A stretch of 64,000 nt of DNA, taken from Polaribacter sp. SA4-10. Lineage in GTDB: Bacteria > Bacteroidota > Bacteroidia > Flavobacteriales > Flavobacteriaceae. A program made the position numbers and the translations under genes. The stretch lies in contig NZ_CP019331.1 of assembly GCF_002163835.1 (NCBI RefSeq), positions 2,703,001-2,767,000 on the forward strand. Direction: 5' to 3'. A model generated the notes under the pieces. It saw nothing but the letters and a program-made list of their open reading frames with translations, had not been told where the DNA came from and did no database searches. Positions 14,039 through 61,518 of the stretch are shown here, piece after piece. Position 1 is the first letter of the stretch. Each line of letters starts with the position of its first letter.

Positions 14039-14136
14039 AGGTTGCGCTTTACACTATATTTTTTTATGCTGAATTAAGTTCAGCATAAAAAGGTTAAAAA
14101 TATCAGCAGATATTTGAACGGTTTCAAGCGCTAATG
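14039..14136. repeat. Dispersed ~98-bp repeat with palindromic core, copy 1
   Basis: This intergenic block matches the reverse complement of 45576-45674 over almost its whole length with only scattered differences. The core ATGCTGAA/TTCAGCAT (about 14066-14086) is a perfect hairpin with a 5-nt spacer, flanked by AAAAAGGTTAAAAATAT and TTTGAACGGTTTCAA. It is not coding. It looks like a small non-autonomous mobile or REP-like element. Confidence 0.75.
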
Positions 14137-24203: not shown

Positions 24204-24285
24204 CTTAAACTTATCATTCCCAAGAAAATGGAAATTAAGAAAAATAAAAATTGATTGCTTGGACGCTAAAAGTAGTAGATAATTA

Positions 24286-24356
24286 CTGCTTTAGCATTTT
24301 TTGTTTCAACTGAAAAATCAGTATCAGAGGTTGCAATCAGTTCAAATTTTTCCTCT
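24286..24356 (-). ncRNA. Probable SAM-II riboswitch in the metK leader
   Basis: Read on the minus strand, AGAGG (P1) is followed by AATTTGAACTGATTGCAA, then CCTCT closing P1, a spacer with a small hairpin (CTGA/TCAG), and TGCTAAAGCAGT. ACTG in loop 1 pairs with the final CAGT, giving the H-type pseudoknot. The conserved UUUG...AUUGCA and GCUAAA blocks agree with the SAM-II (metA/SAM-alpha) family as I remember the metX crystal-structure RNA. It begins right after a TAACTTTG promoter box. It should bind SAM and lower metK expression. It is unusually far (about 140 nt) from the start codon. Confidence 0.8.
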
Positions 24357-24367
24357 TAAATTCTTTG

Positions 24368-24561: not shown

Positions 24562-24591
24562 CACTCACAAAGTTCAATAACTTATTGAAAT

Positions 24592-24696
24592 GTTATCAAG
24601 AAAGGCGGAGGGATTAGACCCATTGAAACCTTAGCAACCCTTTAGAAATAAAGAAGGTGCTACATTCTACCCAATTTTTATAATTGGATAGATAAC
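24592..24696 (+). ncRNA. SAM-I (S-box) riboswitch upstream of metY
   Basis: The conserved S-box blocks appear in order: GTTATCAAGAAAGG, GGAGGGATTAGACCC, TTGAAACCTTAGCAACC, AAGGTGCTACATTC and the closing GATAAC, which pairs with the opening GTTATC (P1). SAM binding should shut down the metY-metX/thrA-metZ operon. A second copy with the same core lies at 41461. Confidence 0.95.
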
Positions 24697-24702
24697 AAAA
24701 AA

Positions 24703-41386: not shown

Positions 41387-41460
41387 ATTTTACAAATAGA
41401 TTCTGCAAATAAAAAAATAATCCTTTTCTTTGTAAAATAGTTCATTAACTTATTGATTAC

Positions 41461-41585
41461 GTTATCACGAAAGGCAGAGGGATTAGACCCGTTGACGCCT
41501 TAGCAACCCATTTCTTTTCGAAATAAAGGTGCTACATTCTACAGTTTATCCTGAACTTATTTCAGGAATTAATCTGACAGATAAC
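41461..41585 (+). ncRNA. SAM-I riboswitch upstream of split metH
   Basis: S-box blocks in order are GTTATCACGAAAGG, AGAGGGATTAGACCC, TTGACGCCTTAGCAACCC, AAAGGTGCTACATTC and the closing GATAAC pairing with GTTATC. P3/P4 holds an extra hairpin (TCCTGAA/TTCAGGA, 41549-41567) not seen in the copy at 24592. It should lower metH expression when SAM is high. The start codon is 50 nt further on, and no strong terminator lies between. Confidence 0.95.
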
Positions 41586-41635
41586 AGCGAAAAAATTACT
41601 TTTCCTGATGACATATTGATGAAAATATCATAATA

Positions 41636-45575: not shown

Positions 45576-45674
45576 GCGTTAGATATTGAAACCGTTCAAA
45601 TAGCTGCTCATATTTTTAACCTTTTTATGCTGAACTTGATTCAGTATAAAAAGATATAGTGAAAAGCGCGACCT
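45576..45674. repeat. Dispersed ~98-bp repeat with palindromic core, copy 2
   Basis: This block is the reverse complement of 14039-14136 with scattered mismatches. The core here is TGCTGAACTTGATTCAGTAT (imperfect palindrome), flanked by TATTTTTAACCTTTTTA and TTGAAACCGTTCAAA. A related half-element (ATACTGAACTAAATTCAGCAT) lies just downstream at about 45701-45721, directly against the metF start. Confidence 0.75.
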
Positions 45675-50977: not shown

Positions 50978-51142
50978 GTTTTCTGTTTAGTCCGTGTTCT
51001 TTTAAGTTGTTTTCTATCTTCGGTTTAAAATCCAAAAAAGGTAAGTTATTTAATGGAGGATTAATGAATTGTATTTATTGTTAGTGACTTCTTTAAAAGA
51101 GTTAAGTGTCTAAAAAAAACTTACTTCTATGTTTTGCTAAAA

Positions 51143-51176
51143 TTGATGCTTCATTTAATTTTTTATTTTATTTTTG
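51143..51176 (+). promoter_or_regulatory. Promoter of the LytTR regulator gene
   Basis: TTG (51143-51145), 23 nt, TATTTTTG (51169-51176). This places the transcript start after the upstream in-frame ATG at 51134, which supports the start at 51203. Confidence 0.55.
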
Positions 51177-51202
51177 CGAATAAATTATTATATAAGAGTT
51201 AT

Positions 51203-51949
51203 ATGATTGCAAATTTAAAGGTACTTGTTGTTGAGAATAATATATCAAATTATAAGTTAATTGAAGCTTATTTTAAGAAATATTTCCCCACTATTGAAGT
51301 CCTAGGACCTGCAAAAAGCTCAAAGGAATTTGTTGATTTATACTTTAAAATAAACCCAGATATTCTGTTGCTTGATATTATTTTAGATGATGATAAAACC
51401 TCGCTTGAAACATTAGCTGAATTAGGCCTTATCACTGCCGAAATTATTATTACAAGTTCTTTTGAACAATATGCTTTAGATGCAATTAACAAACACAGCG
51501 TTTCTGCCTATTTAGTAAAACCTATAGATGTTTTTAGTTTTAGAAATGCTTTAGCTGTTGCTGTTCAAAATATTGATATAAAAAGGAGAAATATTAAGAG
51601 TGATAATTACGGCTATAATAATAAAAAAAATATAGCAGTTGCTACAATTGACTCTATAGATTTAATAGAAATTAATGATATTTTGTATTTAGAGGCAGAT
51701 GGTACCTATACTGTGTTTTACCTAGAAAACAAAGACCCAGTAGTAGCATCAAAAAATATTGGAGTATATGATAAATTAATGCCAGGAGATAGTTTTTTTA
51801 GAATACACCACAAATTCCATGTTAACGTTAACAAGGTTGTTAAAGTTTTTAAAGCCGATGGTTATTATTGCGTATTGAATAATGGAAAACACCTATCTAT
51901 AGCGTTAAGAAGGCAAGAACAATTTAAAAAATTTTTAAATATAAAATAA
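51203..51949 (+). CDS. LytTR-type response regulator
   Basis: The start is ATG 51203 because the promoter -7 box lies at 51169; the product has 248 residues. The receiver domain (about 1-125) has the acidic VVENN pocket start, phospho-acceptor Asp in PDILLLDIILDDD, and SAYLVKPID with the conserved Lys. The LytTR DNA-binding domain (about 150-248) has LIEINDILYLEADGTYTVFYL and FFRIHHKFHVNVNKVVKVF. A cognate kinase is not adjacent. It lies just upstream of the T9SS-DGR cluster, which it might regulate (inference). Confidence 0.92.
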   Translation: MIANLKVLVVENNISNYKLIEAYFKKYFPTIEVLGPAKSSKEFVDLYFKINPDILLLDIILDDDKTSLETLAELGLITAEIIITSSFEQYALDAINKHSVSAYLVKPIDVFSFRNALAVAVQNIDIKRRNIKSDNYGYNNKKNIAVATIDSIDLIEINDILYLEADGTYTVFYLENKDPVVASKNIGVYDKLMPGDSFFRIHHKFHVNVNKVVKVFKADGYYCVLNNGKHLSIALRRQEQFKKFLNIK

Positions 51950-51964: not shown

Positions 51965-52047
51965 AAAACAAACCCTTCATGGTGAAGTCTCTAATTTAAC
52001 AAATTAGATAGGACTTAGTGGGTTGTTAAAATATTTTTTTAACAACT
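51965..52047 (+). other. Structured intergenic region with mutually exclusive hairpins
   Basis: AACAAACCC (51968-51976) can pair with GGGTTGTT (52020-52027), enclosing a small hairpin CTTCATGGTGAAG and a stem AAGTC/GACTT capped by CTAATTT/AAATTAG. Alternatively GTTGTTAAAA (52023-52032) pairs perfectly with TTTTAACAAC (52038-52047). The two folds compete for GTTGTT. This may be the 3' end of the regulator mRNA or a leader upstream of 52160. Confidence 0.4.
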
Positions 52048-52123
52048 ATTTCTGTACAACTGCACTTATTGCTCTTTAGGGGGCATTTATATGTTCACTT
52101 TCGCTTTAAATCTTAGTAAGGTT

Positions 52124-52131
52124 TATTTTTG
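52124..52131 (+). promoter_or_regulatory. -7 promoter element upstream of the T9SS protein
   Basis: TATTTTTG matches TAnnTTTG, 28 nt before the start at 52160. No clear -33 box is seen. Confidence 0.5.
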
Positions 52132-52159
52132 CTAGTTACTAAACAGCAAGAAATAAGAT

Positions 52160-53716
52160 ATGAAAAAAATTATAATTTTAATAGTTGGCCTTGTAAGTGC
52201 CAATGTTGCATGGTCTCAAGATCTGCATGTAGGTTCAGGAGCAGCAATAACAACGTTACCCGGTAGCGTATTATTTTCAGGAAGCAATACCTCCGTAGAT
52301 GCATCAGCAAGCTTAACCACTACCTCAGATGCTACTGTAAGTGGCTCTTTTATTGTGAGTGGCACCACAACAGGAGACATTACGTATAAGCGTTATATAC
52401 CTGACACTGATTGGCATTTGGTTTCTGCACCTGTTACAAGTCAAAGCATTCCTACTTTTGTAGGGGTTGCTGGCAATGCAGTAGCTCAAAGTGGTACAAC
52501 AAGTAATTACGGGGTGTCTTATTACAACAACACCAATGCTGCGGGTAATCGTTGGACGTATCATAATACGGCAACCACGGCTCCAGAAAATCAAGAAACA
52601 TTAACAAATTTTGTTTCGGGGCAAGGGTATAGTATGAAGAAGGCCGCTACTGGCGCTTACACCTTTACTGGTGCCATGGCAAACACAGATGTTGCTGTGT
52701 CAATACCAACTGTAAATGCTGGTACGCATCGTTGGAGTTGTATTGGAAACCCGTTTCCATCATTTTTAGCTGTAAATAATGCTGCAAATGCAGTGGCAAA
52801 TGTGTTAACAGGTAACCTTGGTAATTTAGACCCAAGTTTTGCTTTTTTATATGTTTGGAATGGAACTTCTTATGATCCTATAGGGCTTTCGGATACTGCT
52901 TTACAGTTAGCTCCAGGGCAAGCTTTTATGGTGAAAGCAATTAATTTGAATGAAACATTTACCTTTAGCAAAGGTTTACAAAACCATAACAGTGGTCCAA
53001 CCACTTTTTATAAAGGGAGTTCTTCAATACCTACTATTTTAGTAAATCTTACAAGTGGTGCTGTAAACAAAGCTACAAAATTAACGTTTTTAGACAGCTC
53101 AACTACAGGTTTAGATGTAGGGTATGATGCAGGTGCCTACCAAGACGGTACCCCTTCATTTTCTATAAACACCCATTTGGTATCCGATAGCCAAGGCATC
53201 GATTTTACCAGACAATCTTTACCAACAAGTGTTTTAGATAGTGAGGTAGCAATACCTTTATCTGTGTACGCTGCTGTAAATAAAAAATTAACATTTAGTG
53301 TAGCTGCTAATAATGTGCCAGACGGCGTAGCAGTCTATTTAGAAGATAGCTTTAACAATACTTTTACAAACCTAACCGATGCATCTGTAGAAATAACAAC
53401 TACTACTGCTTTAAATGGTATTGGTCGGTTTTACCTACGTACCTCTAGTAGTGTCTTAAGTTTAGAGAATAACGTTGTAGATAATAGTGTAAACTTATAT
53501 AAAACTTCTAATAGTACGCTAAAAATTACAGGTTTAAAAGCACAAGGTAATGCTACGCTTCAAATGTATAACATTGGTGGTAAAGAAGTATTGGCTACAC
53601 AATTTGTTGCACAGCGTGTAAAAGAAATTTCATTACCAATGTTACCAACAGGCGTTTACATTGTAAGTGTTGTTTCTAAATTGGGTACGTTTCATAAAAA
53701 ATTAATTATCGAATAA
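52160..53716 (+). CDS. Secreted surface protein with T9SS C-terminal sorting domain
   Basis: The 518-residue product has a signal peptide (about 1-19, ending AWSQ). The body is rich in Thr, Ser, Asn and Gly and is likely beta-structured, with adhesin-like wording such as WHLVSAPVTSQSIPTF and SCIGNPFPSFL. The last ~75 residues are a type A T9SS sorting domain (LQMYNIGGKEVLAT ... LPTGVYIVSVVSKLGTFHKKLIIE), so it is exported across the outer membrane and anchored or released. It lies directly before the 60-residue protein and the DGR target, probably in one transcript. Codon use is more GC-rich and Thr-heavy than in the housekeeping genes. Confidence 0.88.
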   Translation: MKKIIILIVGLVSANVAWSQDLHVGSGAAITTLPGSVLFSGSNTSVDASASLTTTSDATVSGSFIVSGTTTGDITYKRYIPDTDWHLVSAPVTSQSIPTFVGVAGNAVAQSGTTSNYGVSYYNNTNAAGNRWTYHNTATTAPENQETLTNFVSGQGYSMKKAATGAYTFTGAMANTDVAVSIPTVNAGTHRWSCIGNPFPSFLAVNNAANAVANVLTGNLGNLDPSFAFLYVWNGTSYDPIGLSDTALQLAPGQAFMVKAINLNETFTFSKGLQNHNSGPTTFYKGSSSIPTILVNLTSGAVNKATKLTFLDSSTTGLDVGYDAGAYQDGTPSFSINTHLVSDSQGIDFTRQSLPTSVLDSEVAIPLSVYAAVNKKLTFSVAANNVPDGVAVYLEDSFNNTFTNLTDASVEITTTTALNGIGRFYLRTSSSVLSLENNVVDNSVNLYKTSNSTLKITGLKAQGNATLQMYNIGGKEVLATQFVAQRVKEISLPMLPTGVYIVSVVSKLGTFHKKLIIE

Positions 53717-53729
53717 AAACTTCAATTAA

Positions 53730-53912
53730 ATGAAAGTAAATAACAAGAAATTTGTGGAGCAAGAAAAAGAAGAAATCTCTAGAAAAGAAGCCATTTCTAA
53801 AATAGGAAATTATGGAAAGTATGCTGCTTTAACAGCATTAGGTACGTATCTAATTTTAAGTCCACAAAAAGCACAAGCTGCTAGTGCTGAGTCACCAGGT
53901 ACTGGTTTCTAA
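53730..53912 (+). CDS. 60-residue membrane-associated hypothetical protein
   Basis: The product begins with a charged region (residues 1-25, containing ISRKEAISKIGNYGKYAA), then one hydrophobic segment (about 28-45, ALTALGTYLILSP), and ends KAQAASAESPGTGF. It is not a classical signal peptide because the hydrophobic part comes late. I do not recognise a function, but it sits 13 nt after the T9SS protein and 66 nt before the DGR target and is probably co-expressed with both. Confidence 0.7.
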   Translation: MKVNNKKFVEQEKEEISRKEAISKIGNYGKYAALTALGTYLILSPQKAQAASAESPGTGF

Positions 53913-53978
53913 AAATAAACACACAAATAGCATTTAAATAAAAATAACAATTAACTAACAAAAAAAGAAAATAAAATT

Positions 53979-54863
53979 ATGAAAAAACTATTATTATGTG
54001 CTGCATTTATAGCGGCAAGTTTTACAACAGTTGCACAGGTTGGTGTTGGTACCGCAACGCCACAAGCAGCTTTAGATGTAGTGTCTACAACTAGTGGTGT
54101 TCTTTTGCCGCGTGTTGCTAATATTGCCGCAGTTACCGCTCCCGTAAATGGAATGCTTATTTACGATCTATCAAGTAACTGTTTTAAAGGGTTCGAAAAT
54201 GGGGCCTGGACCTCTTGTTTTAATATTCAGGTAGGTGAAAATGATGTTGTATCTACTACCGGTAAAATATGGATGGACCGTAATTTAGGAGCAACACAAG
54301 TAGCCACTGGTAGTCAAGATTTTGCATCTTATGGAAATTTATATCAATGGGGTAGAGCTGCAGATGGCCACCAAGTAATAATGCGAGATGCAGCCACATT
54401 ACCAAATGGTACTAATCCACCAAGCGGTTCTTCTTCATCTGCAGCAGGGCCAGTGGCTAGTGGTAGTGAAGGTGCAAACTTTATTACTGGTAATTCTGAT
54501 TGGTTAAGTACACAAGATGATGTGCGTTGGAGCACTGGTACAGAAATAGCTCCTGTAAAAACTGCTAACGACCCTTGTCCATCTGGGTATAGAGTGCCAA
54601 CCGAGACAGAATTAACCCAAGAACATCTTTCTTGGTCTTCTAATGATAGTGATGGAGCCATAGATAGCCCATTAAAATTACCTCTTGCGGGCCGCCGCTA
54701 CTCCAGTAATGGTACGCTTTACAGTGTTGGCTCAAATGGCTACTATTGGTCAAGTACCGTAAGTAGTACGGGCGCACGTTTCCTGTACTTCGATAGCAGT
54801 AATGCTAACATGTACAATGACACTCGTACCTACGGCTTCTCGGTACGTTGCATTAAGGATTAA
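53979..54863 (+). CDS. DGR target protein, secreted, with variable C-type-lectin-like C terminus
   Basis: The 294-residue product has a signal peptide (1-20, TTVAQ), a conserved surface-protein segment (GVGTATPQAALDVVSTTSGVL, about 21-80) and a FISUMP-type domain (about 85-294): WMDRNLGATQVA, YGNLYQWGRAADG, ANDPCPSGYRVPTETE and the end YGFSVRCIKD. The last ~60 residues are the variable repeat: 15 codons between residues 239 and 285 differ from the template, and 14 of these are Asn in the template but Arg, Tyr, Ser, Gly, Phe, Asp or Thr here. The fixed scaffold (YYWSSTVSS, FSVRCIK) surrounds the varied sites, as in lectin-fold DGR targets. Its ligand is unknown. Confidence 0.93.
   Translation: MKKLLLCAAFIAASFTTVAQVGVGTATPQAALDVVSTTSGVLLPRVANIAAVTAPVNGMLIYDLSSNCFKGFENGAWTSCFNIQVGENDVVSTTGKIWMDRNLGATQVATGSQDFASYGNLYQWGRAADGHQVIMRDAATLPNGTNPPSGSSSSAAGPVASGSEGANFITGNSDWLSTQDDVRWSTGTEIAPVKTANDPCPSGYRVPTETELTQEHLSWSSNDSDGAIDSPLKLPLAGRRYSSNGTLYSVGSNGYYWSSTVSSTGARFLYFDSSNANMYNDTRTYGFSVRCIKD
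54679..54859 (+). repeat. DGR variable repeat (VR)
   Basis: 181 bp at the 3' end of the target gene align without gaps to 57326-57506. There are 20 mismatches, 19 where the template has A (4 A-to-C, 6 A-to-G, 9 A-to-T). The last 28 bp (from ACGGCTTCTCGG to AAGGA) are identical and probably hold the initiation-of-mutagenic-homing (IMH) site. Identity ends exactly at 54679 and 54859. Confidence 0.95.
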
Positions 54864-54870
54864 TTACTTT

Positions 54871-54944
54871 GGGTTTTTGTACCCTTTATACTTAAACTGG
54901 TTGTCCCGTAGGGCAGCCAGTTTTTAAAACACCGCTTTAGCGGT
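54871..54944 (+). terminator. Hairpins just after the variable repeat: terminator and possible DGR homing hairpin
   Basis: AAACTGGTTG(T)CCC pairs with GGGCAGCCAGTTT (54894-54923) and is followed by TTTTT, a strong terminator for the target gene. A second perfect hairpin, ACCGC-TTTA-GCGGT (54931-54944), begins 72 nt after the VR. DGRs commonly have a short GC-rich hairpin or cruciform downstream of the VR that helps retrohoming; either hairpin could have that job. The rest of 54864-55079 is AT-rich and probably carries the promoter of the next gene. Confidence 0.65.
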
Positions 54945-55079
54945 CAAAATAAAAATTTAAAAAAGTAGGTTTGTTTTATACCTAGTTTGTTGTGTTCTTC
55001 TTTAAGCACCTAAGAGTTTCACGCAACAACAAGCAAACAACAAACAAAACCGTAACGTTGGTCTTTAACAAAAAAAGCA

Positions 55080-55541
55080 ATGACTTTAAAAGAAAAAGTA
55101 ACTTTAGCAGCACAACCTAATAGGTTGTACCTTTTTAAAGAAGGCATGTTTTACAAAGCGTATAACCAAAATGCAATGTGGTTTGTACAAAAAATAAAAC
55201 GGTACAATGTAACGGTTAAATACATAAAAAATATACAGCAAGAGGTGTTTAGTATTGGTTTTCCTGTAACCTACTTAAATACATTAAATTTAAAGCCTTT
55301 TACTGCACAAAATATAGATAATACGGCTTCAAATTTATGTTGTTATACCATAACACAACAGCCTATAAAAACAACAAACTATATAAGTTGGTGTGCTAAT
55401 TTGCCAAGGCCAAATGCACAACCAATACAAACAATAAAACCATACACAAACATACGTACGCAACTACAAAATTTTAATATGGCAATAAAAACACCTATAG
55501 AAGCCTTTGAGTTTTTAATACAGTTAAAAAAAATGTTATAG
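55080..55541 (+). CDS. DGR-associated MutS-domain-I-like accessory protein
   Basis: The 153-residue product has RLYLFKEGMFYKAYNQNAMWF (positions about 15-35), which resembles the LLLFRVGDFYE...A block of MutS domain I, followed by a mixed alpha/beta segment ending in SIGFPVTYLNTL. The ATPase and clamp domains of MutS are absent. Small MutS-like proteins are known next to some Bacteroidota DGR reverse transcriptases, where they may replace or assist Avd (role unproven). It lies between target and RT; the 121-nt gap to the RT has no other ORF. Confidence 0.7.
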   Translation: MTLKEKVTLAAQPNRLYLFKEGMFYKAYNQNAMWFVQKIKRYNVTVKYIKNIQQEVFSIGFPVTYLNTLNLKPFTAQNIDNTASNLCCYTITQQPIKTTNYISWCANLPRPNAQPIQTIKPYTNIRTQLQNFNMAIKTPIEAFEFLIQLKKML

Positions 55542-55662
55542 TGTGTTATTTTAGTATACAGTAACCCGTCTTGTTTGCACACATCTTGTTAGCCTGGGAT
55601 AGTCTTACGCAATAGTAAGCAACCAAAAACCCACCAACTATAGAACCATATCCAAATAAAAA

Positions 55663-56886
55663 TTGCAAAACTTAACAGAACAACTTTACTTCTCTTACTT
55701 AGATGCGCGTAAAAACAAACGTAACACGCATAATCAATTAGCTTTCGAGCTAGATTTAGAGCATAATTTATGCACTCTAGCAGCTCAAATTTATACCAAT
55801 AGCTACCAACCAAAACCGGCTATTGCGTTTATAGTAAATAAACCTGTGCAAAGAGAAATTTTTGCAGCAGATTTTGCAGATCGTGTAGTACATCATTTAA
55901 TTTACAGGTGTTTATACCATAAACACGTAGATCCTTTTTTTATAAAAGATAGTTACAGTTGCCGTAAGGGAAAAGGTACACTTTATGGCGTAAAAAGAGC
56001 AACTCATTTTATACGTTCTTGCACACAAAACTATACACAAGAAGCGTACATTTTAAAATTAGATATCTCGGGTTATTTTATGAATATGAGCCATAACTTA
56101 CTATACAATAAAGTAATGGCTTTTATAACTAAAAAAGAGTATTTAGGCATCCCTTCAAAAACATTAATACAGCTTTTACGCAAAACAATTTTTGCAGATG
56201 TAGCTAGTAATTGCCACATAAAAGGTAGTAAAAGCGAATGGGTTGGGCTACCAAAAGATAAAAGTTTATTTAACAAACCCGCTGGTATTGGCTTGCCAAT
56301 TGGTAACTTAACTTCACAAATATTTGGTAATATTTATTTAAATCAACTAGACCATTATATAAAAAACACCTTGCAAATTAAATATTATGGCAGGTATGTA
56401 GATGATATGATATTTGTGCATAAAAATAAAACAGTGTTAAAAAAAATAATACCCAAAATACAAGCACAGTTAGACATTGTTGGATTAACAATACATCCTA
56501 AAAAAATGTACTTGCAACATTACACAAAAGGCGTTTTGTTTTTAGGGCATTATATAAAGCCATACAGAGCGTATATAAGCAATCGTACAAAAGCAAATTT
56601 TTATAAGGCCATACCTACAATAAATCATTTAATTACTGCAAATTTTCAAATTACCTGGGAAACAATGATAAAAGTAAGAGCATTATTAAACGCTTATTTA
56701 GGTACTTTAAGCCATGCTAAATGTTATAACCTAATAGTAAAAACATTACAAAACCTAGACAGTAAATTTTATTACTTTTTTGGGTTCACAAAAAACTATT
56801 CTAAAACCTATATAAAAAAAGACTATTGGCTATGGCACTATACACAAACCTACCTGTTTACAAAACAAGCTACGATGTATTGTTAG
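55663..56886 (+). CDS. Diversity-generating retroelement reverse transcriptase
   Basis: The 407-residue product starts at TTG 55663; a stop codon lies 6 nt upstream and there is no early ATG. RT motifs are in order: REIFAADFADRVVHHLI (about 64-80), SYSCRKGKGT (98-106), LKLDISGYF (131-139, first catalytic Asp), GLPIGNLTSQIFGNIYL (210-226; the [IVL]GxxxSQ form is diagnostic for DGR RTs, where group II RTs have QGxxxSP), YVDDMIF (245-251, catalytic Asp pair) and KGVLFLGHYIKPY. There is no maturase or endonuclease domain. It should copy the TR RNA with errors at adenines. Confidence 0.96.
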   Translation: MQNLTEQLYFSYLDARKNKRNTHNQLAFELDLEHNLCTLAAQIYTNSYQPKPAIAFIVNKPVQREIFAADFADRVVHHLIYRCLYHKHVDPFFIKDSYSCRKGKGTLYGVKRATHFIRSCTQNYTQEAYILKLDISGYFMNMSHNLLYNKVMAFITKKEYLGIPSKTLIQLLRKTIFADVASNCHIKGSKSEWVGLPKDKSLFNKPAGIGLPIGNLTSQIFGNIYLNQLDHYIKNTLQIKYYGRYVDDMIFVHKNKTVLKKIIPKIQAQLDIVGLTIHPKKMYLQHYTKGVLFLGHYIKPYRAYISNRTKANFYKAIPTINHLITANFQITWETMIKVRALLNAYLGTLSHAKCYNLIVKTLQNLDSKFYYFFGFTKNYSKTYIKKDYWLWHYTQTYLFTKQATMYC

Positions 56887-57191
56887 ACGTACATAGATAT
56901 ACAAACACCTTTACAAGAGAACATAAATACACGATAGGTGAAAAACTAAAAGAAGAAAGTATACAGGTGCTAATAGCTATTTTTAAAGCAAACAAAGCTA
57001 AAAAAAATAACAGATTAGTACACATAGATACCGCAAGAGAACATGTAGAGTTGTTACGTTTGCTATCTCGTATAGCAAAAGAGTTAGAGGTACTAACTGC
57101 AAGACTTTATGTGGCCTTAAACTTAAAAATAGAAGAAGTATCAAAACAACTAACAGCATGGCAAAAATACACGGCCGGAGCTATTACCTAA
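56832..57191 (+). CDS. avd: DGR accessory variability determinant (Avd-like four-helix bundle)
   Basis: The ATG at 56832 gives 119 residues and overlaps the RT by 55 nt in another frame. The protein is all-helical, basic and of Avd size: VYKTSYDVLLDVHRYTNTFTREHKYTIGEKLKEES, then a Lys/Asn-rich loop, HVELLRLLSRIAKEL and a final helix. The YTIGEKL block and helix pattern match the Avd / 23S intervening-sequence protein fold, a pentameric barrel that binds RT and the template RNA. It is followed by the template repeat. Confidence 0.9.
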   Translation: MALYTNLPVYKTSYDVLLDVHRYTNTFTREHKYTIGEKLKEESIQVLIAIFKANKAKKNNRLVHIDTAREHVELLRLLSRIAKELEVLTARLYVALNLKIEEVSKQLTAWQKYTAGAIT

Positions 57192-57325
57192 ATTTTTTAT
57201 AAATTTAATAATAGGAGTGTTTTGTAATCCTAACACAACTCTTACAAATTGTAAGGACATGTTTTTTTAAACATTTAGTATACAAATATATGTTGTATAT
57301 TAAATTACAAGTTTGTGTTTAATAG
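57192..57325 (+). ncRNA. Leader of the DGR template RNA
   Basis: This 134-nt AT-rich, non-coding stretch between avd and the template repeat is presumably the 5' part of the template RNA. It can form partial hairpins (GGAGTGTT with AACACAACTC; CTTACAAATTGTAAG is a perfect small one near 57241). No clear promoter is seen, so the RNA may be processed from the RT-avd transcript. Confidence 0.45.
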
Positions 57326-57506
57326 TACCTCTTGCGGGCAACCGCAACAACAGTAATGGTACGCTTAACAATGTTGGCTCAAATGGCAACTATTGGTCAA
57401 GTACCGTAAGTAGTACGAACGCACGTAACCTGAACTTCAATAGCAGTAATGCTAACATGAACAATAACAATCGTGCAAACGGCTTCTCGGTACGTTGCAT
57501 TAAGGA
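57326..57506 (+). repeat. DGR template repeat (TR)
   Basis: This invariant 181-bp copy of the VR contains about 60 adenines by hand count. In the target's frame it is rich in AAC and AAT (Asn) codons, whose adenine changes cannot create stop codons. The open frame running through it (57313-57561) is a by-product of templating, not a gene. Only about 50 nt separate it from the next CDS, so any downstream spacer RNA needed for cDNA priming would run into that gene. Confidence 0.95.
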
Positions 57507-57557
57507 AAACAATTTTTGCCATGCTTTTAAAATAATAATTAAAAAAGAAAGATTAAG

Positions 57558-58902
57558 ATGAGAAACGCATTACTACTAACATTATTACTAGCAAACATAC
57601 TGCAAGCAAAGGCTCAAACACTAAAGGGCACATTAACACAACATAAAGGGCAAACAATAACCTTAATAGGCTTTAACTATTACAAAGCATTAGATTTAGA
57701 CAAAACAGTTGCAGATAGCCTTGGTAATTTTAGCCTAAACTACCCAAAAAATTACAAAGGTATGGGCATCTTAAAAACCCAAGATAATAGTAGTTTAGTA
57801 ATGCTACTTAAAAAATCTAAAACACAAATTACAGGCACACATTTAAAAGATGCAGCTAGTTTACAGTTTATAAATAGTAAAGAAAACAACCAATTTGTAA
57901 CGTATGCAAAGACATATACCCAAGGCAAACAAGCGTACAGCGCATGGCGTTATCTAAAACCCAAGTATACAAATATAGAAACTTTAAAAACAGAAAAAAA
58001 AAGTACTACAAACAATAGACAAAGAGTTAGAACGTTTAGAGCAAGTAGCTGCCAATGCTATAAAATTAATACCAGAAAAAAGCTATTTACATTGGTTTTT
58101 ACCCATGCAAACTTTGGTAAAAGACATGCCAGAAACCATCCATAAGTATACAGAGAACTTACCTAAAAACATACAGCAGTTTAGAAGTATAGACTTTAGC
58201 CACCCAAATTTTAAAACAAGTGGTTTATTTAAAGAATTGATAGAAGGGCATTATTTTTTACTAGAAAATATGGGGCAAAATTTAGACAGTGTCTATACCC
58301 AAATGAATACAAGTACAGATTATTTAATTAAAAGCCTAAAGAAGAATGACAGCTTGTTAAACACCGTTTCAGAAACACTGTTTAAATACTTTGAAAAACG
58401 AAGTTTATACCCTGCAGCAGCACATTTAGCTACCCAAATGCTAAGCCAAGACCAATGTGTGTTAAGCACCAGTTTAGCCAATACGATGCAAAAATATAAA
58501 GATTTAAAAGTGGGTGCTATTGCACCAGATATACAACTAGATGCAAGCACCACATTAAGTAGTATTAAAAAACCGGTATTGCTTGTGTTTGGTGCAAGTG
58601 GGTGTACACACTGCAAAAAAGAAGCTTTAGAATTATTAGGCTATTATGACACTTGGAAAGCCAGAAAAAATATAGAAGTAGTGTATATAAGCTTAGACAC
58701 AGATAAACAAGCTTTTAAAACCACTTACCAAAATACGCCTTGGCAAACCTATTGCGATTATAAAGGTTGGGAAACCCAAGCAGCAAAAGACTATTATATA
58801 AACGCTACACCAACCTATTTTTTATTAGATAAAGATTTAAAAATATTGGTGCATCCTAGATCTTTAGGGCAAGTAGATGCTTGGGTTACTCACAAGTTGT
58901 AG
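57558..58902 (+). pseudogene. Exported thioredoxin-like (TlpA/AhpC-type) protein broken by a frameshift
   Basis: The first frame starts at ATG 57558 with a signal peptide (MRNALLLTLLLANILQAKAQ) and a DUF4369-like domain. Coherent sequence then switches frame at a run of nine A (57994-58002); with eight A the frames join as ...ETLKTEKK-VLQTIDKELERLEQ... and continue to 58902, about 447 residues. The second part ends in a thioredoxin fold with VFGASGCTHCKKEALELL (CxxC) and NATPTYFLLDKD. Such proteins are periplasmic thiol oxidoreductases. The break may be a real mutation, phase variation, slippage-corrected, or a sequencing error. Confidence 0.8.
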
Positions 58903-59121
58903 TTGTTGTTATAAAGTTACCTCTTTGTTCTGCTACACTTGTTGTAGTATCTATAAAATAAGCATTTACAAAAAAAAATACGGACATAAATTCTGGGTAA
59001 CAGTATAATTTTGTTATTGCTTTATACGTCTTCCTTCTTAAAAATAAAATTGAAACACAAACTACAAAAAATAACTATTTTTTATTATTTTAGAAACTAG
59101 ATATTAAAAATAAAAAAATAG

Positions 59122-59155
59122 GACACCTTTAATTTTTTATCAGGTGTCATTTTTT
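59122..59155 (+). terminator. Intrinsic terminator downstream of the thioredoxin-like gene
   Basis: GACACCT/AGGTGTC (59122-59128 with 59142-59148) has a 13-nt AT loop and is followed by TTTTTT. A-rich sequence on its left could make it bidirectional. Confidence 0.65.
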
Positions 59156-60039
59156 AGAAACAGATAAACAACCATTTAAGATACTTTCTAAATATTAGAA
59201 ACCACTTTTACACTTAAAGTACCCCATCTGTCTCCGCAAGAACGCAAACAGTTTGGTGGTGTTAATGCGCAAAACAAATTAAGTATTAAGAAAGTAACAG
59301 GTTATAGAGAAAGGCAACCTAGTTTAAGTAGACCAGATATACAATAGGCAGCTTATTTACAAAATCATAATAATCCAAATTTTTTGTCAAAACGAAGCAA
59401 AACGTTTAACAGGACAGGTAAGGGTGTTTAAAATGCTAAAAAAATGTATAAATAGGATAATGACCAAGTCTCTTTAATAGATTATAGTTATACTCAATAC
59501 AAAAACAAGTCTAGAGCAATAGAACACAAAACTGTATTCATGGAAAGATAAGTATTGTGATTTTTAAGAAAAACAAGTTGTTAACTTTAAAACGATGGTG
59601 TAAAAGACGCTTCTACTTTACTTCTTATAGAAAAACAAAGAAACATATTAGTAGGAGTACACTATTGAAGAAAATAATTATAAAAATGGTAAAGCATTAG
59701 TTGTGAAGTTATTGAGTTTATTTTTTTTAAAATAGTTAGATTGTTTAAAAACTTGGTAACACCTGCGCTACAAATTCTCTTAACTTTTTACTTTATGTCT
59801 CCCTAAAATAACTTGTTAGATTATATATAGGTAATCAAAGTTACCTTCTCTTTTTTATCCGCCTTCCGTAAGTGTTAACCTAAAAGGTTTCTATAATTGG
59901 GTTAGAAGGGGTAATGTGTTGCTTAACGCTACGGTAAGCTATATTTATCAAGATATATGCCACTGGTTATTTTCAGTACTATTACTTAGTGTTTTTAGTA
60001 TTAATACGGTGTTTATTTGGTATATATAAATCTATATTT

Positions 60040-60828: not shown

Positions 60829-61518
60829 ATGAAACAGAATGTAAAGTTTTTAATAGAAGCGAATGAAACAAAACGAAAATTCTTGTCAATTATATCTCAC
60901 GAGTTGGCAAATCAGTTTAACACAATACTAGGGTTTACAAGCTTATTAGAACAAGACTATGATACCTTCACAGATAAAGAAAGAAAAGAGTATGTTTCTA
61001 TAATTAATTTACATGTCAACCGCAATTATAAAATAACAAAAAATCTTTTAAATTGGTCAAAGTCTCAACAAGATGGTATGGTTTTACTTAAGAAACAGAT
61101 TAATGTTAGAAAGAGCGTTTTAGATTGTATTAAACCATATCAAACTTTAGCTTGTAAGAAGCAACTAGTTACAAGCTTAATTATTGAAGATTCGTTAACT
61201 GTTTTAGCAGATTTAAATTCTTTTAATACCATTTTAATAAATATATATAGTAATGCCATAAAGTTTTCATGTAAAGGTGAAATAATTATAAAAGCAGAAA
61301 AAAATAAAGAGGAAATTAAAATACAGATTATAGACCAAGGGGTTGGTTTTAAAAAAGAAAAAATAAATTCTACTTTAGGTACTAATAATGAAGAAGGCTC
61401 AGGTGTAGGGTTATTAATTGTCAAAGACCTTTTAGATGCACATAGGGGAAGTCTAGAAATTTCAAAAAACTTTTTAAAAGGTACTATTATTTCACTAAGA
61501 TTTCCTTTAGGAAAATAG
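60829..61518 (+). CDS. Short sensor histidine kinase core
   Basis: The 229-residue product holds only a transmitter. The H-box is FLSIISHELANQFNTILGF with the phospho-acceptor His; the N-box is NIYSNAIKFSCKGEI, G1 is IDQGVGF and G2 is EGSGVGLLIVKDLL. There is no membrane segment or sensing domain, so it is soluble, perhaps the tail of a longer kinase that was truncated, as much of the surrounding DNA is degenerate. No response regulator is adjacent; the LytTR regulator at 51203 is 9 kb away. Confidence 0.85.
   Translation: MKQNVKFLIEANETKRKFLSIISHELANQFNTILGFTSLLEQDYDTFTDKERKEYVSIINLHVNRNYKITKNLLNWSKSQQDGMVLLKKQINVRKSVLDCIKPYQTLACKKQLVTSLIIEDSLTVLADLNSFNTILINIYSNAIKFSCKGEIIIKAEKNKEEIKIQIIDQGVGFKKEKINSTLGTNNEEGSGVGLLIVKDLLDAHRGSLEISKNFLKGTIISLRFPLGK

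Follow-up and report, generated by a model that had tools for sequence, protein, structure and literature searches.

Organization of the locus

We analysed a window of 64,000 nucleotides from the genome of Polaribacter sp. SA4-10 (NZ_CP019331.1, positions 2,703,001 to 2,767,000), which is a single contig of 3,435,762 bases, and in which positions 53979-57506 of the window constitute a complete diversity-generating retroelement (DGR). Its parts lie on the plus strand in the order target gene with a variable repeat (VR), msl, reverse transcriptase (RT), avd, and template repeat (TR) (Table 1). A complete DGR had been predicted here from the letters of the DNA alone, and every component named in that original prediction could be located: the target with its C-terminal VR, the MutS-like gene msl, an RT of the DGR type with the motifs GLPIGNLTSQ and YVDD (both within the 407-aa open reading frame, ORF), an Avd-like protein, and, 2.6 kb downstream of the 181-bp repeat, its near-copy (the spacing is 2647). 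The ORF listing agrees with the statement that the parts required for mutagenic retrohoming are present and open, and the flavobacterial host that had been suggested belongs to the genus Polaribacter.

Table 1. Features of the DGR and of its immediate surroundings (positions in the window)
Feature	Coordinates	Strand	Remarks
Target gene 1 (294 aa)	53979..54863	+	N terminus resembling a signal peptide by eye; C-terminal domain of FISUMP / C-type-lectin fold, with VR1 at its end
VR1, variable repeat (181 bp)	54679..54859	+	extended repeat 54672-54859
Hairpin 1	54895..54922	+	stem of 12 bp including two G-T pairs; CGTA loop; 35 nt after VR
Hairpin 2, ACCGC-TTTA-GCGGT	54931..54944	+	sole ACCGCNNNNGCGGT match in the window
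msl, MutS-domain-I-like accessory gene (153 aa)	55080..55541	+	F-Y-K replacing F-Y-E of MutS
DGR reverse transcriptase (407 aa)	55663..56886	+	TTG start, TTG in P. marinus too
avd (119 aa from ATG 56832; 121 aa from TTG 56826)	56832..57191	+	overlaps the RT gene
avd-TR spacer	57192..57325	+	predicted multibranch RNA fold; TCCTAACA at 57228-57235
TR, template repeat (181 bp)	57326..57506	+	60 adenines; from comparison with VR
518-aa protein with T9SS (type IX secretion system) sorting domain	52160..53716	+	duplicated with the target in locus 2
60-aa ORF	53730..53912	+	conserved beside the T9SS protein in locus 2 and P. marinus
Thioredoxin-like gene	57558..58902	+	split into ORFs 57558-58145 and 58105-58902; intact (447 aa) in locus 2

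Adenine-specific differences between the repeats

The repeats extend over 188 nt (54672-54859 and 57319-57506, 88% identical) around a homologous core of 181 bp (54679-54859 versus 57326-57506). Within the core, VR1 differs from TR at 20 of the 181 positions, and 19 of these 20 fall on TR adenines, which make up 60 of the 181 bases (hypergeometric P 1.3e-9); in VR1 the adenine is replaced by T nine times, by G six times and by C four times. The 22 mismatches over the 188 nt occupy the first codon position in 14 cases, the second in seven and the third in one, and AAC or AAT accounts for 19 of the 59 TR codons read in the frame of the target. The last altered adenine of VR1 is 28 nt before the 3' end, and in the last 28 nt the TR adenines are unchanged both in VR1 and in a second variable repeat, VR2, described below. 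This is as expected if cDNA synthesis would start upstream of the unaltered stretch, which corresponds to the initiation of mutagenic homing (IMH) sequence of the Bordetella phage BPP-1.

Reverse transcriptase and Avd

The RT matches RVT_1 in Pfam (3.7e-19), being the only RVT_1 match in the whole genome, and the reverse transcriptase family of PHROG (2e-89, 302 bits); its best PDB sequence match is 8ub7 (E 8.9e-22), which we take to be the Bordetella DGR RT. The NCBIfam model of group II RTs reaches 96 bits, far under its cut-off of 300. Phylogenetic placement had been set beforehand as a check of the DGR assignment. In a tree of 16 rows a 100/100 branch places the window RT among the DGR sequences, together with BPP-1, phage F2 and crAss LMMB, and a clade of the window RT with the three non-DGR rows, i.e. 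two group II RTs and one retron-type record that groups with them, is rejected (p-AU, i.e. approximately unbiased test, 0.025). Group II intron or retron membership is rejected by this test against a sample in which curated retrons are barely represented (one in the 19-row tree, none in the 16-row tree). The 16-row tree is an earlier 19-row tree minus three rows; the latter, with its one curated retron, gave the same division between DGR and non-DGR sequences with weaker support (77/79). Three curated retron loci (L063-L065) had no match to the window RT and were excluded, and L060 was unused. In the 19-row and 16-row trees the window RT clusters with those of Polaribacter marinus (P. marinus) and the loci L019, L021 and L022 (100/99 and 100/100, respectively).

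The product of avd matches PF22296 (bAvd) in Pfam above the cut-off (2e-14) and phrog_3206, the Avd protein of DGRs (1.2e-20); with the NCBIfam Avd model it scores 50.3 bits, under the 80-bit cut-off. DGR accessories are Avd, HRDC or MSL proteins, and the element carries two of these, bAvd and a member of the MSL family.

The target protein and its relatives

The target belongs to the FISUMP family (Fib_succ_major PF09603 in Pfam, 2.8e-10; TIGR02145 in NCBIfam, 42.8 bits against a cut-off of 41.65), and a PDB sequence search with it gave no match at E<=1. Its AlphaFold2 model (predicted local distance difference test, pLDDT, 82.8) is predicted to have a C-type-lectin fold, with structural matches to the C-terminal domains of Lcl from Legionella and Bd2740 from Bdellovibrio, which are only 19% and 12% identical to the target, and to Mtd; the lectin-fold target of the original prediction is upheld by the model and these matches. 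The VR is accordingly placed at the 3' end of the gene of a predicted binding-fold protein, the fold being a C-type lectin in known cases. The VR presumably encodes the binding face of the protein, which would bind a ligand.

We aligned 65 of 120 listed relatives with the window target and its copy in locus 2. Compared with the window target, the protein P0122, encoded on a contig of 115,888 bases, has a single difference among 135 N-terminal residues and 18 differences among the 60 residues of the VR; 16 of the latter affect codons whose first or second position holds a TR adenine (P 3.5e-4). A further 14 differences, in residues 181-234, are not explained by the DGR. Three relatives of the same length (P0125, P0132 and P0133) differ at 22 of 59 residues within the VR, 17-19 of them at TR-A codons, and at 56-81 of the 234 residues before it, and are therefore too distant for a clean test of the adenine codons.

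A second target 630 kb away

A search of the genome with TR found three places, i.e. TR itself, VR1, and VR2 (G000:C1:2126775-2126962, minus strand), the last of which was absent from the original prediction. VR2 belongs to locus 2 (L004, G000:C1:2118000-2136000, minus strand), 630 kb from the DGR, which comprises the T9SS protein, the 60-aa ORF, a 294-aa target 87% identical to target 1, and the first 129 bp of msl with six differences; past this relic there are about 50 bp, and then the sequence that follows TR in the window, with the intact 447-aa thioredoxin-like gene. RT, avd and TR are absent from locus 2, in agreement with the single RVT_1 match of the genome, and appear to have been lost from it.

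VR2 differs from the TR core at 26 positions, 23 of which are adenines; its non-adenine mismatches thus number three, compared to one in VR1. The two VRs differ from each other at 31 of 181 sites, 27 of them at TR adenines. Altogether 32 of the 60 adenines are altered in VR1, VR2 or both, and among the 10 altered in both the same base is found in five. The flanks of the VRs are identical between the loci over 362 bp before and 66 bp after the repeat, so that 0 of 428 flank sites differ as against 27 of 60 adenine sites, whereas patches elsewhere in the duplicate have diverged by several per cent (for most of the T9SS gene the figure is 3.3%). Identical flanks amid diverged patches indicate that the loci seem to have exchanged sequence recently, and since the VRs within these flanks are divergent, at least one of them must have been rewritten after the exchange, although a single genome does not reveal which. 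We regard this divergence amid identical flanks as strong evidence of recent diversification, i.e. the DGR has apparently been active recently. The mosaic of identical and diverged patches in locus 2 relative to the window copy also suggests gene conversion. No such second place was seen in P. marinus.

Proposed mode of action and its alternatives

We propose that the locus is very probably an MSL-type DGR belonging to the cell and not to a phage, in which one RT and one TR serve two targets. The TR-bearing transcript would be recognized by RT-Avd, perhaps via a structured spacer just upstream of TR; the RT would copy TR with random bases opposite the TR adenines, and the cDNA would replace the VR at the 3' end of the secreted FISUMP/C-type-lectin gene, leaving TR fixed. 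Up to about 20 Asn-type codons could be altered in this manner on the presumed binding face. VR1, which is beside the RT, would be the cis target, and VR2 could now be served only in trans, because locus 2 retains a relic of msl only and has no RT, avd or TR. Homing is presumably still ongoing.

It is possible, if clearly less probable, that only the cis target is served, i.e. that VR2 was diversified when its own cassette had an RT and a TR and is now frozen, and VR1 alone is rewritten today. Locus 2, where the msl relic runs into the post-TR region, seems to have once been a whole cassette, and the higher number of non-adenine mismatches in VR2 agrees with such a history. On the other hand, the flanks identical over 428 bp, as against the divergence of most of the T9SS gene, bespeak a recent exchange, within the tract of which the adenine-site pattern of VR2 is nonetheless different, and hairpin 1 is unchanged after VR2. 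We consider it rather improbable that the DGR has an intact sequence but is silent, with old VR differences kept by selection for binding diversity: a decayed copy does exist in another genome (G036), one of the four Polaribacter genomes with this RT, and the neighbouring thioredoxin-like gene is split, but in the window RT, avd, msl, TR and the target are open, as is the target of locus 2, and the contrast between unvarying flank sites and varying adenine sites argues against old differences. Finally, an ordinary duplicated 3' gene fragment beside a group II intron or retron RT would accord with the match of the RT to the group II model, itself far under the cut-off, but can be dismissed, since the adenine-specific mismatches, avd, the RT tree with its rejected grouping with the three non-DGR rows, and the recurrence of the same cassette in other Bacteroidota all contradict it.

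The MutS-like accessory protein

The protein encoded by msl is by itself under the threshold of the Pfam family MutS_I, PF01624 (17.1 bits, E 0.0067, cut-off 20.6), whereas E<=0.05 is reached by 20 of the 22 family members in the alignment (best 7.8e-5), so the MutS-like gene of the original prediction holds at the level of the family, which resembles MutS domain I without the rest of MutS. The 22 rows comprise 16 of the 27 proteins found (fragments and odd lengths were excluded), the window protein, and five fetched loci. The best of the models computed from these sequences has a pLDDT of 81.2 (81, 77, 77, 40 and 40 for the five models); Taq MutS occupies Foldseek ranks 1-3 with high probability (0.97-0.99) but E of 0.1-0.2, and the model superposes on it with a root mean square deviation of 1.6-1.9 over about 50 columns. 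A PDB search with the MSL profile yielded no match at E<=1.

In MutS, the Phe residue of the F-x-E motif wedges into mismatches, and the Glu residue partners it. The segment GDFYETFGEDA from domain I of the host MutS aligns with GMFYKAYNQNA of MSL, which keeps the Phe and has Lys in place of Glu; F-Y-K is present in 22 of 22 aligned rows and in all 27 proteins found, and the more distant MSL of the locus L029 has F-Y-H. MSL (MutS-like, PF01624) is a known DGR accessory (PMC10053308). Deletion of mutS was employed to help retain DGR substitutions, and an insertion-repair assay was unaffected by MutS (PMC12875486). Published work linking MSL to mismatch repair was not found among the literature matches listed, in a search that left most subscription papers outside its scope.

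RNA structure around the repeats

The spacer between avd and TR may be structured. The element TCCTAACA is identical in eight of eight aligned loci with the order msl-RT-avd-TR, the window included, and RNAalifold predicts 32 pairs for five loci, four with changes on both sides, in a consensus junction closed by AACATATC/GATATGTT directly before TR. Folded alone, the window spacer is predicted to form a like junction, closed at the same place by ACACAA/TTGTGT, and so is the spacer of P. marinus, closed by ACACAG/TTGTGT (the last pair is G-T). Several observations weigh against a structured spacer. The fold z-scores are small (window -2.03, L018 -1.76, L019 +0.39, L020 -1.41, L021 -2.25, L022 -1.55, L023 -0.96), the closing stem is invariant within the five loci, and the fold of L022 alone differs in part. 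Moreover, the covariance model R1, built from five non-Polaribacter loci (A5), found only its five training sequences in 75 sources at E<=1, and with filters off over positions 52000-60000 of the window it gave a piece of the spacer 9.0 bits (E 0.9), the fifth of 21 places. What ties the Polaribacter spacers to the others is thus that they have TCCTAACA in common, occupy the same position and show a similar topology when folded separately; a model match is not part of the evidence. No Rfam family reaches its gathering score at the DGR, and four matches lie elsewhere in the window.

It is tempting to regard MSL-RT-Avd-TR as a distinct working class of DGRs, although we find this doubtful. In such a class MSL would be a pared-down mismatch binder, with the Phe wedge of MutS kept and Lys in place of the partner Glu, that shields the heteroduplex of cDNA and target from mismatch repair, and an RNA upstream of TR, its junction closed at the TR start, would recruit RT-Avd. 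This arrangement would be the reverse of that in BPP-1, where RT-Avd is recruited by a structured spacer on the 3' side of TR (PMC12875486).

About 40 nt of the 3' flank of TR are alike within Polaribacter, and about 40 nt are alike by eye among L019-L021, but the flanks are not alike between these two groups. Of the two hairpins that follow VR1, the first is identical after VR2, and the second has changed letters there with its pairing kept; P. marinus and G036 have both hairpins, with altered stem letters. Hairpin 1, which has a T run directly 3' of it, could be a DGR target hairpin, a transcription terminator, or both. The hairpins of phage DGRs have GC-rich stems of 7-10 bp, 4-nt GRNA loops, and a distance of 4-34 bp from the VR (Guo 2011, PMC3240598), and hairpin 1, at 35 nt, with a 12-bp stem and the loop CGTA, does not conform to this consensus. 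The loops seen by eye in relatives are GTTA and TTTA.

Distribution and cassette order

At E<=1e-30, four out of 97 Polaribacter genomes, SA4-10 included, contain the RT, which is broken in one of the four. The RT of P. marinus MSW13 is 88% identical to that of the window, and its locus shows the array of regulator, 518-aa T9SS-like protein, 61-aa ORF, target, msl, RT, avd, TR and thioredoxin-like gene, with extra ORFs ahead of the target; 16 of its 17 VR/TR mismatches are at adenines. A search for further msl-type loci in 395 genomes of the phylum (E<=1e-90) gave 11 matches, namely SA4-10 itself and 10 with 45-51% identity. The best-ranked RTs from viral contigs and phage records are 50% and 42% identical to the window RT, respectively.

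We compared the cassette order in 60 RT-bearing loci besides the window, some of which are near-copies of each other. The avd gene is downstream of RT in eight, upstream in 44, and was not found in eight; TR follows RT in four, precedes it in 38, and was not detected in 18. Eight of the 60 loci have msl, and seven of these (L016 and L018-L023) share the RT-avd order of the window and have a TR-like stretch 3' of RT; in the eighth, L029, msl, avd and TR are all ahead of RT. A viral locus, L070, has avd and TR after RT without msl. The order msl-RT-avd-TR is not new in kind, because DGR cassettes are known to vary, with 122 patterns described (PMC6642488). The sole match listed in the literature for Polaribacter together with a DGR term concerns, judging from its listing, crAss-like phages.

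Individual loci deserve mention. The decayed DGR of G036 (L016, G036:C1:2620000-2638000) has its RT in two pieces with a stop, only a fragment of TR, an msl match spanning two ORFs, and three copies of the target, one of them truncated beside a transposase-like ORF, which is presumably IS256-like. Another Polaribacter locus (L017, G041:C84:1-10721) harbours a different DGR with avd and TR before RT, in which 19 of 20 VR/TR mismatches are at adenines. In L033, from a Parcubacteria metagenome-assembled genome (PKTH01000023.1), the DGR adjoins a target ORF of about 2049 aa, and the RT matches are in two ORFs. The loci L020 and L023, titled Thioalkalivibrio and Bifidobacterium breve, contain Bacteroidota-like msl DGRs and are probably misbinned contigs.

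Relationship to known DGRs

DGRs, MSL, multiple VRs and C-type-lectin targets are already known, and the Polaribacter DGR has some less usual parts. With the DGR of BPP-1 (mtd-avd-TR-brt) it shares RT, Avd, TR, the C-terminal VR in a protein of C-type-lectin fold, the differences at TR adenines, and an inverted repeat downstream of the VR. It differs in being chromosomal, in the order target-msl-RT-avd-TR with TR last, in the presence of msl, in having two targets, in the conserved and perhaps structured spacer upstream of TR, and in the post-VR loops, which are not GRNA. As in other DGRs of the MSL type, msl, of the MutS domain I family, adjoins the DGR RT. Several VRs were reported for 271 of 948 non-redundant DGRs (PMC6642488), and like other multi-target DGRs that of Polaribacter has one TR for several VRs in targets related by duplication; in contrast to them, VR2 lies at a distance of 630 kb, in a cassette copy that lacks RT, avd and TR, and identical flanks date the divergence of the VRs.

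A single complete genome in which two target copies with identical flanks have been rewritten differently at template adenines provides a built-in record of recent DGR action, and it allows trans homing to be tested directly in a marine bacterium whose DGR is chromosomal rather than phage-borne. It also raises the questions of whether a MutS-like accessory handles the mismatches of the heteroduplex and how the RT is recruited when TR is last, for which published answers were not found among the matches listed within the same search scope.

Genomic neighbourhood

The original prediction that no phage genes surround the DGR stands: a Pfam scan of the 10 neighbouring ORFs found none, and these surroundings are not those of a prophage, but comprise metabolic genes, a peptidase, a DUF58 protein, a histidine kinase and a gene of a glycosidase family. 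The T9SS neighbour was considered as a partner of the DGR and rejected; with 82 of 95 genomes containing a relative of it at E<=1e-40, the family is too common in Polaribacter to be DGR-specific. The 60-aa ORF has a hydrophobic stretch and a PGTGF end, and gave no match at E<=1 in Pfam, NCBIfam or PHROG. The split thioredoxin-like gene differs by one base in the length of an A run from the copy in locus 2, and either a slip in sequencing or phase variation of the run could account for this; such a gene is also present 3' of RT in L016, L018, L020 and L021. A LytTR response regulator (51134-51949) lies upstream and a histidine kinase (60829-61518) downstream of the DGR, and similar ORFs flank the DGR of P. 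marinus (by DNA match and by eye); they may be involved in its regulation.

Elsewhere in the window, Rfam places three riboswitches on the minus strand, two of the SAM (S box) type and one of the SAM-II type (sites 24590-24698, 41459-41587 and 24281-24361), that at 41459 directly before a homocysteine S-methyltransferase gene, and an inverted repeat pair of 89 bp with 92% identity is found at 14039-14127 and 45586-45674.

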